Shown here: piece after piece, positions 8,570 to 20,236 of the stretch
How positions within the stretch are numbered: position 1 is the first letter of the stretch
How the letters are laid out: each line of letters starts with the position of its first letter
Source of the DNA: a virus
DNA: 20,236 bases
Virus record (IMG/VR): IMGVR_UViG_3300006947_000120
Coordinates: 1-20,236 of that record
Strand: one strand, 5' to 3'
Notes under the pieces: generated by a model
What the model was told of the DNA's origin: nothing
The model's input: the letters and a program-made list of their open reading frames with translations, nothing else
Database searches by the model: none
Translations under genes and position numbers: made by a program

Positions 8570-8570
8570 T

Positions 8571-8804
8571 ATGGAAATGGACGCAATCTTGAATATACTT
8601 TTTGCCATCGTAATTAGCGGCCTTGGCTGGCTTATTAAGAGTCAAAAAGAAGAGCTGGATCGCGTCCGTATCCTACTCAATAGAACTCGTGAAGAAATGG
8701 CGAAGGAGTACGTTACTAAAAATGATAGCTCTCAGGTGCTTTCTCAGATTATGAGCAAATTCGACAGGCTAGAAGAGAAGATCGACCGACTTATGGAGAG
8801 GTAA
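8571..8804 (+). CDS. N-terminally membrane-anchored coiled-coil protein (spanin-like topology)
   Basis: A 77-residue protein with one N-terminal transmembrane helix (about residues 5-22, AILNILFAIVISGLGWLI) followed by a charged heptad-like coiled coil ending EEKIDRLMER. The chosen start is the ATG one base after the preceding TAA; GGAAGG at 8554-8559 could also serve ATG 8577. An earlier in-frame ATG at 8529 would overlap the preceding gene by 41 bases and is less likely. The topology resembles an i-spanin (Rz-like), and the holin/endolysin genes follow, but no Rz1 partner with a lipobox is visible. It could equally be an unrelated small membrane protein. Confidence 0.7.
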   Translation: MEMDAILNILFAIVISGLGWLIKSQKEELDRVRILLNRTREEMAKEYVTKNDSSQVLSQIMSKFDRLEEKIDRLMER

Positions 8805-8808
8805 GCTC

Positions 8809-11850: not shown

Positions 11851-12075
11851 TTAACTATTTGGCCTTGCCATTGGCCTAATTGATGAAGACGGTATGTCAG
11901 TTCGTCTGCATTCAGCCATGCTGTTTCTTGATTGCGACAAAATCACGGGATAAATCGCGTCGTTGGCCACCGAACAAGTGGGCATGTCTTTGAAGTAAAT
12001 AGTTGACGTGGCCTCATAGGAGTTGACGCCAGAGGTCACGATGTAAGTTAGCGTAAGTGCTGCCCAATAGGTCAT
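11851..12075 (-). CDS. Small protein with hydrophobic N-terminus and Cys pair
   Basis: A 74-residue protein, the last gene of the leftward operon. Its ATG overlaps the stop of the upstream HTH gene (ATGA at 12072-12075), which strongly favours translation. The N-terminus (MTYWAALTLTYIVTSGVNSY) could be a strand pair or weak signal. Cys34 and Cys56 flank a helical segment (CSVANDAIYPVILSQSRNSM), and the tail is polar (IPSSSIRPMARPNS). The layout resembles the rightward gene 9284-9448. Function unknown; a periplasmic disulfide micro-protein is possible. Confidence 0.6.
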   Translation of the reverse strand: MTYWAALTLTYIVTSGVNSYEATSTIYFKDMPTCSVANDAIYPVILSQSRNSMAECRRTDIPSSSIRPMARPNS

Positions 12076-12842
12076 TCCGCTTCCCTCTCAAAGCCAGAGT
12101 AAAGCGCTTTAATAGGCTGCTTGCTAAATACCCAGCGCCACTGCTTCTTTGGCTGACCGTCAATTACAACAAGGTCACGCACCCGGTACAGCTTGTCAGA
12201 TTCAAACATGGACTTGAGGTAACTTGACGTGCGTGGGATGCTATCGCCCAGCAGGCCAGCGGCCTCTGAGGCAGTTATTCGTTGGTCATAGCTTAACATG
12301 CGGAAAAGTTTCTCGCCCTGCTCAACGCCATTTTCTCTACGGCGCTGGGCCATATCAAACGCACTCTTGGTAAGAGTGCTACCTTTTTTCAGGTTGCACG
12401 GTAAAGAAGGCCTCAAGCCGCGTTTTTGCATGAGCTTTTCAAACTCCATGAGACAATGCGCGTATGTAACCTCATATCGTTGCTCTTTTGTAGTGGCCGC
12501 TCCCAAGTTTTCTTGCAATTTCAGAAAGGCAGCTTGCTTATCTCTTTCTTCAGCATTCTTATAAGTGCGTCTTGTTCTTGCAGGCGCTGCTTCAAATTGG
12601 GCCGCGTCTCCGTCTTCGGCTCCCCCAGAATTATCTGATTCACTCTCTCTAGTCGATGTATATATATCATTATTTGGTCCAAATTCACGCTTTTTCCTTT
12701 TAAGTTTAATGCCAAGCTGGTTTGTCACACGGGATACCGTTGACGGGGTTACGCGCAGTAAGTCAGCAATATCACCTTGAGACATACCCATCTCAGCGCA
12801 TTTCATAATTTGATCTGTTAAAACGTCAACTTTCTGTGTCAT
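12072..12842 (-). CDS. Helix-turn-helix DNA-binding protein
   Basis: A 256-residue protein. Residues about 8-45 form an HTH (MSQGDIADLLRVTPSTVSRV) followed by a basic stretch KLKRKKRE. A linker rich in Ser, Glu and Asp follows (about 55-95). A central helical region carries a EQRYEVTYAHCLMEFEKLMQ stretch. The last 70 residues look like a second winged-helix-like unit (ITASEAAGLLGDSIPRTSSY, then LYRVRDLVVIDGQPKKQWRW). It starts in an ATGA overlap with the zinc-ribbon gene, with GGGAG just upstream. It is likely a phage regulator or replication-initiation helper, given its place after the primase. I cannot name the family. Confidence 0.65.
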   Translation of the reverse strand: MTQKVDVLTDQIMKCAEMGMSQGDIADLLRVTPSTVSRVTNQLGIKLKRKKREFGPNNDIYTSTRESESDNSGGAEDGDAAQFEAAPARTRRTYKNAEERDKQAAFLKLQENLGAATTKEQRYEVTYAHCLMEFEKLMQKRGLRPSLPCNLKKGSTLTKSAFDMAQRRRENGVEQGEKLFRMLSYDQRITASEAAGLLGDSIPRTSSYLKSMFESDKLYRVRDLVVIDGQPKKQWRWVFSKQPIKALYSGFEREAE

Positions 12843-13009
12843 TCATCTTCTCCCTCAAAAGGCTCTATTTGGCCCGTACCTGCGCAATTATCGCATTCAG
12901 TTGTTTCTGTGTCTGGGAAACCATAATCATTGTTAAGGCTTTGCGTGACAAACGTCTCTCGCTCTTGTGATCCGGTGCCATTGCATTCTGGGCAATCAAT
13001 CCATTCCAT
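12839..13009 (-). CDS. Zinc-ribbon micro-protein (DnaJ-type CxxCxGxG pair)
   Basis: A 56-residue protein with two CxxC-x-G-x-G knuckles: CPECNGTG (Cys6, Cys9) and CDNCAGTG (Cys39, Cys42), as in one zinc site of the DnaJ central domain. The tail is acidic. I chose ATG 13009 rather than an upstream frame start at 13087 because AAGGAG lies six to seven bases before it on this strand. It overlaps the end of the primase gene by 14 bases and the next gene by ATGA. It probably binds one zinc ion and acts as a protein- or nucleic-acid-binding adaptor; target unknown. Confidence 0.75.
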   Translation of the reverse strand: MEWIDCPECNGTGSQERETFVTQSLNNDYGFPDTETTECDNCAGTGQIEPFEGEDE

Positions 13010-14912
13010 TATCTTTCTCCTTACATTTTCCATCTTTATCTGTGAACCAAACGAAACCCTCGTTCTGCACCAAATGCCCTGCGCCAATCAACGCTGCCAC
13101 AGCCTGTTTATATATTGAGCTTGGGTTTGACGCTGAGGACACTTTGCCAACAAAGTGGTCCTTCACTGTCTCCTCAGAGATAACCCAAAAGGTGCGTGGA
13201 TCAGGCCAGCCGGGGCCGCTTGGATTGGGATTACCTATGCCCTCGCCGCGCAATTGAGTAAACACCTTGCGAATAAGCAACTGGTTCTTTCCCTTAATGC
13301 GTGGCTTGTTAGCCTCCTCAATCTCGCTGTCCGACGCCTTGTGGATGGTGCAGGTTGTTACATCGTCACCATCCTCATCTATACCAAGCTCAATCACGTT
13401 TAGCTTAAACGAGAATAGAGTACCCGTCTCCATGTCGCGCTGCTTAGTCGCCCTTGCCGTGCGCATGCCCGTGGCTTCATCGTGGTCCAGCTCAATCTCT
13501 GTGTCAGTGGCAGCGCGTAAGCTCGAATGCCCCCTAGCCCCAGCGGCTTTATCTTTTCCAGAGTGATGCACCACTGCCAAGCTGGCACTTGTTATCTCGC
13601 GCAGCTTATCGCAATTGCCAATAAACTTGGTCATGTCTTCAGGAGAGTTTTCATTGCCACCAGCCATAGACCGGCTGAGCGTGTCCACAACTATAAACTT
13701 AACTTGGCCGTGCTTACGAGACACCTCGCGGCATAGCTTCTCCAACACAACCATGTCCACGTCGCCGTCAAGCAAGTTTACCGGCAAAGGTCTAACGGCC
13801 AGCTTAACGTCCTTGTGTTCGGGGTACTGTCTACTAAGAGCCACAACCCGGTTGTGCATGCCCATGCCGCCTTCTGTGGCAAGATACAAAACTGAACCGC
13901 CAATGACTTTATGGCCGTTCCATTCCTGCCCGGCAGCAATATGCCAAGCCATGTCTAAGGCAAAGAATGACTTGCCCACGTTGGACGGGCCATAAATCAC
14001 TGACATTTGGCCGGAGCCAAGCCATCCCTTCACAAGGTAATTGCGGCTTAGCTGCGGTATGGCCTCACCCGGCATGAAGATTTGATCCATCACGCTCTGC
14101 ACTGTTAAAGCCTTGCGTGTGGCATCTGGGCCTTGGTTGACCCACATGTCGGAATAGTCCCAGCCATCATTCTCAGGCATGATGTACTCAACGCCCAACT
14201 CAGAGAATGCACGCTCACACTCCTTGCGGCCAGCGTCGTCATTATCTCCGGCAATGACAAATTCAGTGTCGGGCTTGGCTTGTTGTAGGTTGTCTACAAC
14301 CGCCAAGATATTGCCAGCGTTCAGTGCGAAGACGCAGGGCTTACCTGTGGCTTCATGCACTGTGGCTGCTGTTGCCCAGCCCTCTGCGATATATGCAAAC
14401 TCACGAATAGGTCCACCAATCACGCTAAAGTTGCCGATTACTGGAAGCTGGTAGGAAAACTTCTTCTTACCATCTGCGTCAATAAACTGCGCGCCAACGC
14501 GCCTGCCCTTCACGTCGATGATTGGTATTGCCAAGGTGTCGCCGTCAATGGTTGCGTTGTGAAGCTTCAGGCGCTTCTTCTCAAGATACGGGTGACTACT
14601 CATAACGTCACGCTCAGGCCATTCAATATCAACTCTCTTTACCTCTGGTTGCGCCGTGTGTCCCGGCTGAGGCCATAGCGACATATCGCGCAGCCTATCC
14701 TTAATTGATTTATAGTCGTTACACTTGCGGCAATTGACCATAACTTCGCCTTGAAATTCTTTAATCCAAAATCTATCTGTGCCTGAGCATGATGGGCATG
14801 GGCCGTGAAACTCGCCTTGCGACGTTTTCTTCAGCTCAAGATTGCGAATAATTGTTTGACCAAATTCGCTCCATCGTGCGTTTGGAAACTTGCTCTCCGT
14901 AAAAACTTTCAT
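12996..14912 (-). CDS. Toprim primase fused to RepA-like helicase ATPase
   Basis: A 638-residue replication protein. An N-terminal zinc ribbon (CPSC at 39-42 and CRKC at 61-64) likely recognises the template. A Toprim domain follows, with AEGWATAATV (Glu177) and AGDNDDAG (Asp223, Asp225), the metal-binding residues for primer synthesis. The C-terminal half is a RecA-type AAA_25/RepA helicase: Walker A GPSNVGKS (308-315), Walker B IVVD (407-410), and VVHHSGKD with ARGHSSLRAATD (447-470). It would unwind and prime phage DNA, like T7 gp4 but with a RepA-type ATPase. AAGGAA stands seven bases before the ATG. A final region (about 545-638) looks like an added winged-helix segment. No polymerase gene adjoins it here. 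Confidence 0.88.
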   Translation of the reverse strand: MKVFTESKFPNARWSEFGQTIIRNLELKKTSQGEFHGPCPSCSGTDRFWIKEFQGEVMVNCRKCNDYKSIKDRLRDMSLWPQPGHTAQPEVKRVDIEWPERDVMSSHPYLEKKRLKLHNATIDGDTLAIPIIDVKGRRVGAQFIDADGKKKFSYQLPVIGNFSVIGGPIREFAYIAEGWATAATVHEATGKPCVFALNAGNILAVVDNLQQAKPDTEFVIAGDNDDAGRKECERAFSELGVEYIMPENDGWDYSDMWVNQGPDATRKALTVQSVMDQIFMPGEAIPQLSRNYLVKGWLGSGQMSVIYGPSNVGKSFFALDMAWHIAAGQEWNGHKVIGGSVLYLATEGGMGMHNRVVALSRQYPEHKDVKLAVRPLPVNLLDGDVDMVVLEKLCREVSRKHGQVKFIVVDTLSRSMAGGNENSPEDMTKFIGNCDKLREITSASLAVVHHSGKDKAAGARGHSSLRAATDTEIELDHDEATGMRTARATKQRDMETGTLFSFKLNVIELGIDEDGDDVTTCTIHKASDSEIEEANKPRIKGKNQLLIRKVFTQLRGEGIGNPNPSGPGWPDPRTFWVISEETVKDHFVGKVSSASNPSSIYKQAVAALIGAGHLVQNEGFVWFTDKDGKCKEKDNGMD

Positions 14913-18307: not shown

Positions 18308-18588
18308 TAATCCGCTCCCTGCTCTTCACGCTCAAGTGCAATGTTAATAATGGTTCTATGAATTCCTGTGTCTCCCTCAAGGTCTAAGCCCTCAAGAACC
18401 AAGGCGTTGTGGACTTTGCGCCGGGCAGAAATCGAAGCCTTGCATAGCCTAGCCTTTTGAGGATGGCGTTGACTCCAAAAATAAGCCACGCCCATATAAT
18501 TGCTTGAGCCTACAAAATCACGGTCAATCTCGCTAATTTTGCATAGGGCGGGGAATGTTACCCCGCCCAGCTTCACCTCAATGCTCAT
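18307..18588 (-). CDS. Hypothetical early protein
   Basis: A 93-residue protein. ATG 18588 was chosen because it overlaps the end of the upstream gene by only 11 bases; in-frame ATGs at 18600 and 18615 would lengthen the overlap, and no candidate has a strong ribosome-binding site. The sequence has a strand-rich start (MSIEVKLGGVTFPALCKISE), a GVAYFWSQRHPQKARLC segment and a helical end. No family recognised. Confidence 0.6.
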   Translation of the reverse strand: MSIEVKLGGVTFPALCKISEIDRDFVGSSNYMGVAYFWSQRHPQKARLCKASISARRKVHNALVLEGLDLEGDTGIHRTIINIALEREEQGAD

Positions 18589-19042
18589 CGACTTCGCCAT
18601 TCCAAACAACGCCATGCTCTTCAAATTTTTTCATTTGATGCTTGTTTGGCTTGGTGTCAAAAAAGTGGTGCATTTTACCAGAGACATTATCGAACTGCTC
18701 AACGTCGCTCATGCTTAACATTGAATATTCACTCTCAAGCTCATCGACAACTTTTCTGCACATTTTCATAACTTTGCTTTTATCTTCGCATTCGCTACTA
18801 TCCCAATCGTATTGATTTTTGAGCAAATAATATGCCTGAGAAAAACTCACAACGTCATCATATAGCAGGCGCATAAAATTATTAACGCTCTCGGATAAGC
18901 TGCAAGCAGACCACCGCAAGCTATTCGCAGCGTCTAGCTCATCCTCTTTTAGCTCAGATATAACGTCGGCCCGGTCAAGATAACGCTGCTTGATATTTTC
19001 CCAACGCTCTGCGGTGTCCCATGTGTCATTTGAATTTGTCAT
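18578..19042 (-). CDS. Hypothetical early protein, first gene of the leftward operon
   Basis: A 154-residue acidic, helical protein. ATG 19042 is supported by GGAG about seven bases upstream; an ATG at 19054 lies just before that site. Segments: TWDTAERWENIKQRYLDRAD, SLRWSACSLSESVNNFMRLL, then a charged region with KVMKMCRKVVDELESEYSML and a His-rich HHFF near the end. No known domain. As the first gene behind the leftward promoter it would be expressed early, and it is a candidate host-interaction or regulatory factor. Confidence 0.65.
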   Translation of the reverse strand: MTNSNDTWDTAERWENIKQRYLDRADVISELKEDELDAANSLRWSACSLSESVNNFMRLLYDDVVSFSQAYYLLKNQYDWDSSECEDKSKVMKMCRKVVDELESEYSMLSMSDVEQFDNVSGKMHHFFDTKPNKHQMKKFEEHGVVWNGEVDEH

Positions 19043-19116
19043 GTTAATCTCCATAATTTCATGTTTCGTAATTATCTTAAATCATAAATAAAAGATATGC
19101 ACAACACCTAATTTAC

Positions 19117-19171: not shown

Positions 19172-19333
19172 ATGGGCGATAAGAAACGTTTAATTCAATT
19201 TAGCGATATAGCCGACCGGGCTATTTCAGAAGCAGCTCTCAAACTTGGCCTAAGCTTTAGCGCATTTTGCCGTAGCGCTGCTTTAGAAAAGGCCAGCAAC
19301 ATAGTAAAGCCTAAACAACCGGCGGTTGATTAA
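19172..19333 (+). CDS. Ribbon-helix-helix (CopG/Arc-like) transcriptional regulator
   Basis: A 53-residue protein. The N-terminal strand (KKRLIQFS) is followed by helix A (DIADRAISEAALKLG) and helix B starting at LSFSAFCRSAALEKA, the standard ribbon-helix-helix layout including the G-L-S-x-S turn. Such proteins dimerise and insert the strand pair into the DNA major groove. AGGGGA lies about six bases upstream. The gene follows directly on a divergent promoter region with an inverted repeat, so autoregulation and control of the leftward operon are likely. The stop overlaps the resolvase start as TAATG. Confidence 0.72.
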   Translation: MGDKKRLIQFSDIADRAISEAALKLGLSFSAFCRSAALEKASNIVKPKQPAVD

Positions 19334-19803
19334 TGTTGATATATGGATGTGACCCAGGCTTCACGGGTGCCATCGCGCTATACTGGACCGATACGGGCAA
19401 GCTGGAAGTCCACGATATGCCGGTAATGAAAAATACAAAAGGTAAGGCGATTATAGATTTGCATTCCCTGTTGGACGTTCTGAAAAACGAAGCGGACGAA
19501 AAGTGCATGTGCTTACTTGAATTGGTACAGTCCAGACCTGGCCAAAACTCAAGCGCCGTATTCAGATTTGGCCAGGGTTTCGGGCAATTGCAAATGGCAG
19601 TGGCGGCAAATAAATTGCCCGTGCAATACGTCACGCCAGCAAAATGGAAGAAATATTTTGGACTATCTAAGGATAAGAATGCAAGCCGGGCGATGGCTAT
19701 GGACCGTTTTCCAAGGGAAGCTGATTTGTTTAAGCTGGTCAAATTTGATGGCAGGGCAGAGGCTGCTCTATTGTGCCTATACGCGGCAGAAACGATGGTT
19801 TGA
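19333..19803 (+). CDS. RuvC-like Holliday junction resolvase
   Basis: A 156-residue protein with RNase H-like resolvase features: the first strand IYGCDPGFTGAIAL (3-16, Asp7), CLLELVQSRPGQ (60-71, Glu63), FRFGQGFGQL, VTPAKWKKYFGL (100-111), and the C-terminal FDGRAEAALLCLY (138-150, Asp139, Glu143). These supply the acidic metal-binding residues. It would resolve branched replication or recombination intermediates before packaging. It is translated with the upstream regulator (TAATG) and lies in the opposite orientation to the rest of the replication genes. Confidence 0.85.
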   Translation: MLIYGCDPGFTGAIALYWTDTGKLEVHDMPVMKNTKGKAIIDLHSLLDVLKNEADEKCMCLLELVQSRPGQNSSAVFRFGQGFGQLQMAVAANKLPVQYVTPAKWKKYFGLSKDKNASRAMAMDRFPREADLFKLVKFDGRAEAALLCLYAAETMV

Positions 19804-19837
19804 GGGTGCTTATTGTTATTTATCAATGGTTTAGGGA

Positions 19838-20024
19838 GTAATTAGTATCGGGGCTGCTCAAGGGCCTAAAATGTGAGGCGTTGTACTTTTTAGATACTAA
19901 TTAGTAACACTTGTTTTTCAATGTGTTAGGCCTGTGATTAGTATATTAGTATGTAATTAGTATCGTATATTAGTATCGACGACTTTACTTATTAATAATA
20001 CTAATTGCCTTTAGGCATTAGTAT
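19838..20024. repeat. Cluster of eight ATTAGTAT octamers
   Basis: Exact copies of ATTAGTAT start at 19841, 19937, 19945, 19956, 19969 and 20017 on the + strand, and the reverse complement ATACTAAT at 19894 and 19998. The copies at 19937 and 19945 abut. Longer matches: GTAATTAGTATCG at 19838 and 19953; GTATATTAGTAT at 19941 and 19965. The region is AT-rich and non-coding, so these look like iterons of a replication origin or a multi-copy operator. Confidence 0.75.
19895..19906. repeat. Perfect 12-bp palindrome TACTAATTAGTA
   Basis: A perfect palindrome made of one reverse and one near-perfect direct copy of the octamer (ATACTAAT joined with ATTAGTAA). It is the only place in the array where two copies overlap head to head, as expected for a dimeric protein's full site. 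Confidence 0.65.
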
Positions 20025-20038
20025 TAATATTAATAAGT
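19987..20038. repeat. Long near-perfect inverted repeat (hairpin/cruciform)
   Basis: Left arm 19987-20009 (from ACTTATTAATA to GCC) and right arm 20014-20038 (from GGC to TTAATAAGT) pair along almost their whole length around a TTTA loop, with a one-base bulge near the tip and a small internal gap. Each arm includes one octamer copy. It lies 25 bases before the next gene. Confidence 0.6.
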
Positions 20039-20062
20039 CCGGAAAACGGGAGGGTTTAATAA

Positions 20063-20236
20063 ATGAATGAAAAGATCAGAGCTTGGATCAATCAAAAGAT
20101 TAAAGACGGATCAGCAATTGTCAGCCCTGCTGGCTCTCATAAGGTGCCGGAGCCTATGCACTCGTTCAGCGACAGGTTGAATGCTTGCCGGGATATTGGA
20201 GAGTTGGAGGGTTTTGCCAATCGTCGCAGGTTCGAC
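20063..20236 (+). CDS. Hypothetical protein, 3' partial
   Basis: ATG 20063 is preceded by GGGAGGG (20048-20054) at eight-base spacing. The frame is open for 58 codons to the right edge. It starts MNEKIRAWINQKIKDGSAIV, then a Pro-rich stretch (SPAGSHKVPEPMHSF) and a helical basic end. No family can be named from this fragment. As the first gene after the octamer array it is a good candidate for a gene controlled by it; terminase or an early regulator are possibilities I cannot test. Confidence 0.6.
   Translation, partial: MNEKIRAWINQKIKDGSAIVSPAGSHKVPEPMHSFSDRLNACRDIGELEGFANRRRFD

Follow-up and report, generated by a model that had tools for sequence, protein, structure and literature searches.

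A candidate iteron replication origin in a tailed-phage contig, putatively read by the C-terminal winged helix of a helicase-primase

In satellite phage P4, the alpha protein is a single polypeptide that unites a Zn-ribbon/Toprim primase with a helicase and, at its C terminus, a winged helix that binds the origin (1KA8). The P4 iterons are octamers (TGTTCACC) that occur in both orientations at spacings of 10, 11, 22, 43 and 10, and the crr region lies directly downstream of the alpha gene. In the self-loading helicases SaPI Rep and SCCmec Cch2, a C-terminal domain recognises iterons located directly downstream of the helicase gene (PMC7581432), and the relatives of SaPIBov1 Rep contain a DUF927-type helicase (PMC7581432). 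In the PLE satellites of Vibrio, the DNA-binding domain of RepA and the origin iterons swap together between near-identical elements (PMC8263062). These swaps give compatible modules and are suspected to be driven by a nuclease directed at the origin (PMC8263062). The DNA-binding domain of PLE RepA is of the RepA_N type, and the protein is not described as a helicase (PMC8263062).

The DNA analysed here (the window) is an IMG/VR phage contig of 20,236 bases, to which the phage collection contains nothing closely related. It contains an array of octamers that, as in P4, lie in both orientations, and the corresponding arrays of related phages are found downstream of a helicase gene, as crr is in P4. 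We consider it probable (about 0.83), from comparison of sequences, that the array is a phage replication origin whose sites are read by the winged helix of a helicase-primase, which would load the helicase there. The array and its neighbours are organized as follows.

19333–19803, plus strand: RuvC-like Holliday junction resolvase (PHROG 1770, 5e-32), which in this clade flanks the array on the left
19841–19848, plus strand: outer upstream iteron ATTAGTAT, whose counterpart site in L001 is ATTAATAC
19894–19907, no strand assigned: block A, ATACTAATTAGTAA, in which an inverted (-) octamer overlaps a (+) octamer with one mismatch
19911–19928, plus strand: conserved spacer element separating block A from block B, TTGTTTTTCAATGTGTTA, with invariant alignment columns
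19937–19976, plus strand: block B, four direct octamers at 19937, 19945, 19956 and 19969, spaced 8, 11 and 13 bases apart
19987–20038, no strand assigned: block C, a 52-base near-perfect inverted repeat (cruciform) with octamers in both arms (19998 -, 20017 +)
20007–20016, plus strand: hairpin apex GCCTTTAGGC, whose core CCTTTAGG recurs in arrays with unrelated units
20063–20236, plus strand: start of a small gene, the right neighbour of the array (83–90 aa in relatives)

Eight exact copies of ATTAGTAT are present, at 19841(+), 19894(-), 19937, 19945, 19956 and 19969 (+), 19998(-) and 20017(+), with start-to-start distances of 53, 43, 8, 11, 13, 29 and 19 bases; our recount agrees with the number, places, orientations and spacings given in the initial annotation. 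All copies fall within 19841–20024, and none occurs elsewhere in the 20,236-base window. The count expected by chance is 0.44, and the maximum in 100 shuffles was 2. One-mismatch copies at 19900, 20023 and 20027 are part of the same structure. The array fills the 259-base gap between the resolvase stop at 19803 and an ATG at 20063, and all eight octamers lie outside genes, as had been claimed. The description of this gap as the longest non-coding stretch is likewise borne out by the ORF list, in which the runner-up (8570–8808) spans 239 bases. Searches returned no RNA family match in Rfam and no tRNA; folded as single-stranded DNA, the array region is far more stable than its shuffles (z -5.0).

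Relatives were collected via the resolvase, which is encoded by 58 viral loci; no relative of it was found in bacterial genomes. About 50 of the relatives share one layout: inverted sites are followed by a spacer element, by four direct sites at intervals of 8–13 bases, roughly a helical turn, and by a hairpin whose two arms both carry sites. This layout lies downstream of the resolvase in nearly all loci whose DNA reaches so far, the exceptions being L053–L056, where another gene directly follows the resolvase. The octamer itself is not conserved. ATTAGTAT is missing from almost all relatives, and L001, despite a 97% identical resolvase, has no copy of it yet keeps the layout with another unit. 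The unit is ATTAGTAT in the window, L002 and L004, ATTAATAC in L001, L003 and L013, and ATTATGAT in 13 contigs; mixed units (ATTAATAC/ATTCATAC/TTTAGTAC) occur in 24 contigs, the most distant group has ATTCATAC/ATTATTAC, and in some arrays related units are mixed. At the equivalent of block A, two inverted sites are present in other clades, and block B is kept as four direct sites in relatives with different units. The spacer is TTTTCAATGGGTTA in L002 and the Roseobacter phage CRP-811, and ATAAATAAGGGGTTT in other clades; it may represent a bend or unwinding element. Conservation of the array among related phages, which the initial annotation had proposed to check, therefore holds for the layout and fails for the octamer sequence. 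Because the unit changes while the layout stays, absence of the array in close relatives would have been misleading as a refutation. Base pairing between blocks A and B was considered as the sole cause of the concerted change of units, and was rejected because L051 has ATTCATAC in block A and ATTATTAC in block B.

Candidate readers of the array were sought by fetching the contigs, grouping all of their genes and comparing phages of a T class (unit ATTATGAT) with those of a C class (units ATTAATAC/ATTCATAC). No gene separates the two classes by mean identity. A column-by-column scan, restricted to genes represented three or more times in each class, gave a single cluster of perfectly separating columns, located in the helicase-primase gene; its seven columns all fall within residues 592–600, whereas every other gene had, in small samples, at most one such column. 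The corresponding features of the window are the following.

12996–14912, minus strand: helicase-primase (Toprim_3, Pfam 3e-7; AAA_25 RecA-like, Pfam 2.5e-36), the proposed initiator
13041–13289, minus strand: C-terminal domain, residues 542–624, a predicted winged helix (AF2 model and PDB winged-helix matches)
13113–13139, minus strand: putative specificity patch, residues 592–600 (SSASNPSSI), with the seven separating columns 592, 593, 595 and 597–600

Among the other candidates, the HTH protein encoded at 12072–12842 showed one conservative E/D column and no cluster. The gene at 18578–19054 had the highest class difference in mean identity, but without segregation, and it is hypervariable.

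In the helicase-primase, Toprim_3 scores 31.2 bits (cut-off 27.2) and the AAA_25 RecA-like domain 125.6 bits, the Zn ribbon falls below its cut-off, and the D5 and DUF927 families of Pfam are not matched. The last ~120 residues have no match in Pfam, PHROG or NCBIfam, and no relative of the C-terminal domain was found in plasmids. An AlphaFold2 model of this domain (34 sequences, pLDDT 73.8) displays the H-E-H-H-E-E order of a winged helix, with the third helix beginning at residue 597. Its Foldseek matches are winged helices, linker histone and others (best E 0.005), and VIA-align retrieves ORC1, SAMD1, H1, CRP and others with Z values of 8–9; these matches are evidence for the predicted winged-helix fold, not for function. 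The full-length model (pLDDT 54.6) was too poor for anything beyond secondary structure. In the models, the co-varying residues map to the turn before the predicted recognition helix and to its first turn, at the N-terminal end. An unannotated domain thereby gains a likely function. The same helicase has served as a hallmark gene in the proposal of a roseophage family (PMC12629253), and the text of that paper on the CRP-822 family does not mention iterons or repeats (PMC12629253).

The array co-varies with the predicted recognition helix of this one protein. Residues 592–600 read SSAANPRST in class C, TTASNKSQV in class T and SSASNPSSI in the window; G012 (unit ATTAATAC) has SSVANPRST, and the distant group has SSSSNPRSV. 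The comparison rests on five T and six C proteins from 11 mutually related contigs that carry both parts. Among the 462 partitions of the labels, the true one alone gives seven separating columns within 15 residues; the next best gives four, and 456 give none. The helicase-primases of G040 (T) and G011 (C) are 100.0% identical outside residues 585–612, and two further pairs of opposite class, G004/G018 and G031/G014, are 98.8% and 97.3% identical over the same regions. Pairs of this kind, in which nearest neighbours differ in class, are seen in two or three lineages and are near-identical outside the patch, which implies that patch and array changed together more than once. Between the members of such pairs, DNA differences peak at 19–25 in the 60-base bin containing the patch, and most other bins are in single figures. 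A partial Mantel scan of the whole family for the stretch that predicts the unit gave best stretches that are not confined to the patch, and the array distances saturate. In an alignment made by eye and post hoc, residue 598 may track the last variable base of the unit, with R, K or H accompanying C, S accompanying T and D or T accompanying G (exception, L286).

Among annotated phages, the C-terminal domain is present in five, all Roseobacter phages of the CRP-8xx set. CRP-831 and CRP-821 (TDKSNPRSS; NPRSS) display the same layout with unit TTTATAC, and CRP-811 and CRP-823 (SDKSNPDSA; NPDSA) display it with unit TTTGTAGT, in each case in the gap directly after the helicase gene. The gene that follows the CRP-8xx array is unrelated to the gene at 20063 of the window, and in different phages the array precedes unrelated genes. 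Two further scans added about 80 loci, with 44 distinct C-termini followed by enough downstream DNA. Defining an array as a 7-mer with five or more occurrences in the 250 bp that follow the helicase stop, 35 of the 44 distinct proteins have one directly downstream of their gene, against 0 of 377 control stretches. The units of these wider relatives include TTCATAC, TTCTACA, TTTACAC, TTAGGAC, TGGTACG, TTGGTAT and TTCACAT, and in many of the arrays the forward copies number about six or seven and the reverse copies three to five. The apex CCTWTAGG is found in 28 of the 44 helicase-linked arrays, always in the same orientation, against a background of 0.009 per kb, and may constitute a priming, nicking or structural element apart from the reader sites. 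Similar arrays also lie downstream of the primase-helicase in Idiomarinaceae phage 1N2-2, Alteromonas phage PB15, Salicola phage CGphi29 and CRP-406. In the first three of these (L296–L298: CGphi29, 1N2-2 and PB15), the arrays are unannotated, lie 9–40 bp after the primase stop and include a CCT..AGG hairpin, with units GGGGACA, CGGTACA and TGAACCA. No similar array follows the primase-helicase of MW202475, and none was seen in the contigs of the L177–L194 clade despite the presence of this helicase. The helicase-primases of that clade are 71–72% identical and have the motif NPKTS, and the resolvase gene immediately precedes the helicase gene on its strand. About 5 kb separate array and helicase gene in the window clade, where the array adjoins the resolvase gene, to which it has moved; reader and site, therefore, need not be adjacent.

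The array has also been read as a multi-site operator, through which the ribbon-helix-helix protein encoded at 19172–19333 would repress the downstream gene. The short sites in both orientations and the proximity of this small protein (53 aa, with a weak NikA/TacA-like similarity) are in line with such a role. However, L005 (unit ATTATGAT) and L008 (units ATTAATAC/ATTCATAC) encode exactly the same protein, which hence is not the reader; moreover, in other phages the array follows the helicase gene and the genes after it are unrelated. The operator proposed in the initial annotation is therefore very improbable. Sites for a host protein, such as a nucleoid protein, a DnaA-like protein or a global regulator, with the unit reflecting the host species, would account for the different units of closely similar phages, and one IHF-like match exists at 19821, although not above chance. 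This explanation seems the most remote, as the unit co-varies with the predicted recognition helix of a phage helicase at seven positions, the array follows the gene of that helicase, and no DnaA box is present within the array.

It is also conceivable, if unlikely, that the helicase-primase binds the array as a promoter or copy-number control site and that the true origin is elsewhere. P4 provides a precedent with its two iteron regions, ori and crr, the latter being the one adjoining alpha, and the array does precede a gene start in the window clade and in the CRP phages. Against this, one array per genome was found, and within each contig the unit octamers are nearly confined to it. The reading that we infer to be best is an iteron origin bound by a self-loading helicase-primase built on a Toprim and RecA-like (AAA_25) chassis. 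The earlier proposal of an origin, made from iteron-like repeats that adjoin AT-rich DNA and a cruciform, is supported by the co-variation of the array with the predicted DNA-reading helix of the helicase-primase, and from its position beside the helicase gene in related phages. Cumulative GC skew, suggested as a check for an extremum at the array, was uninformative: in the window the sign changes at the divergent gene switch near 19.1 kb, not at the array, and among near-complete relatives a minimum lies near the array only in G012 and G042.

For the proposed origin, each ATTAGTAT would be bound by the winged helix at the C terminus of the helicase-primase, and several subunits would occupy the blocks of inverted and direct sites as well as both hairpin arms. 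The bound subunits would then place and load the ring helicase with its attached primase, the AT-rich hairpin or the spacer would open, and the Toprim domain would prime synthesis, probably by a host polymerase. As regards family A, the one polymerase family covered, no DNA_pol_A was found in seven long relatives, which makes a host polymerase likely.

By the tests made, the putative replicon would work like those of P4 alpha and SaPI Rep while being a member of neither group. P4 alpha has an SF3/D5 helicase (D5_N, DUF5906) with a Pox_D5 C-terminal domain, in contrast to the AAA_25 RecA-like domain found here. The C-terminal domain of the helicase-primase has no Pfam match and shows no sequence similarity to that of P4 alpha (hhalign E 0.63). 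Both are winged helices, by prediction in the present case, and absence from a list of folds does not count against membership of the 1KA8/Pox_D5 family. Unlike the arrays described here, P4 has no annotated hairpin with a fixed CCTWTAGG apex. SaPI Rep and Cch2 belong to other helicase families, including the DUF927 type that is missing here, whereas the present protein has a fused Toprim primase and occurs in tailed phages; in addition, the array of the window clade adjoins the resolvase gene, ~5 kb from the helicase gene. PLE swaps a whole domain, and the phages studied here change seven residues.

Searches of the open-licence literature found no paper that describes a helicase of this type as binding an origin. 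We see an even chance that these phages represent a family of tailed-phage replicons that is widespread and undescribed; its Toprim and RecA-type helicase-primase would carry a fast-switching winged-helix address reader, and co-existing near-identical phages would differ in origin type. Such a family, if real, would offer a natural library from which the recognition code of winged helices could be read. A repeat cluster becomes a specific, testable replicon, with a site, a reader domain and seven matching residues. Phages that are alike in the rest of the helicase and differ in patch and unit are a ready-made experiment on the change of initiator specificity, and the same pairs bear on origin incompatibility and on possible escape from origin-directed attack. 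We infer that the unit switches are selected, for example as a way to evade a competitor or a nuclease directed at the origin; such nucleases, satellites or superinfecting relatives are possibly the selecting agents for the change of origin type.

Two further observations concern genes near the array. The small protein encoded after the array in the window clade, where the array follows the resolvase, shares the motif ELEGFANRRR with a protein encoded after the array of Roseobacter phage CRP-406 (L114), where the array follows the helicase, and may belong to the replicon. The small gene at 18578–19054, which lies at the divergent promoter, differs strongly between phages that are 97–100% identical in most other genes, and an extra 77-aa gene is inserted at this locus in some phages.
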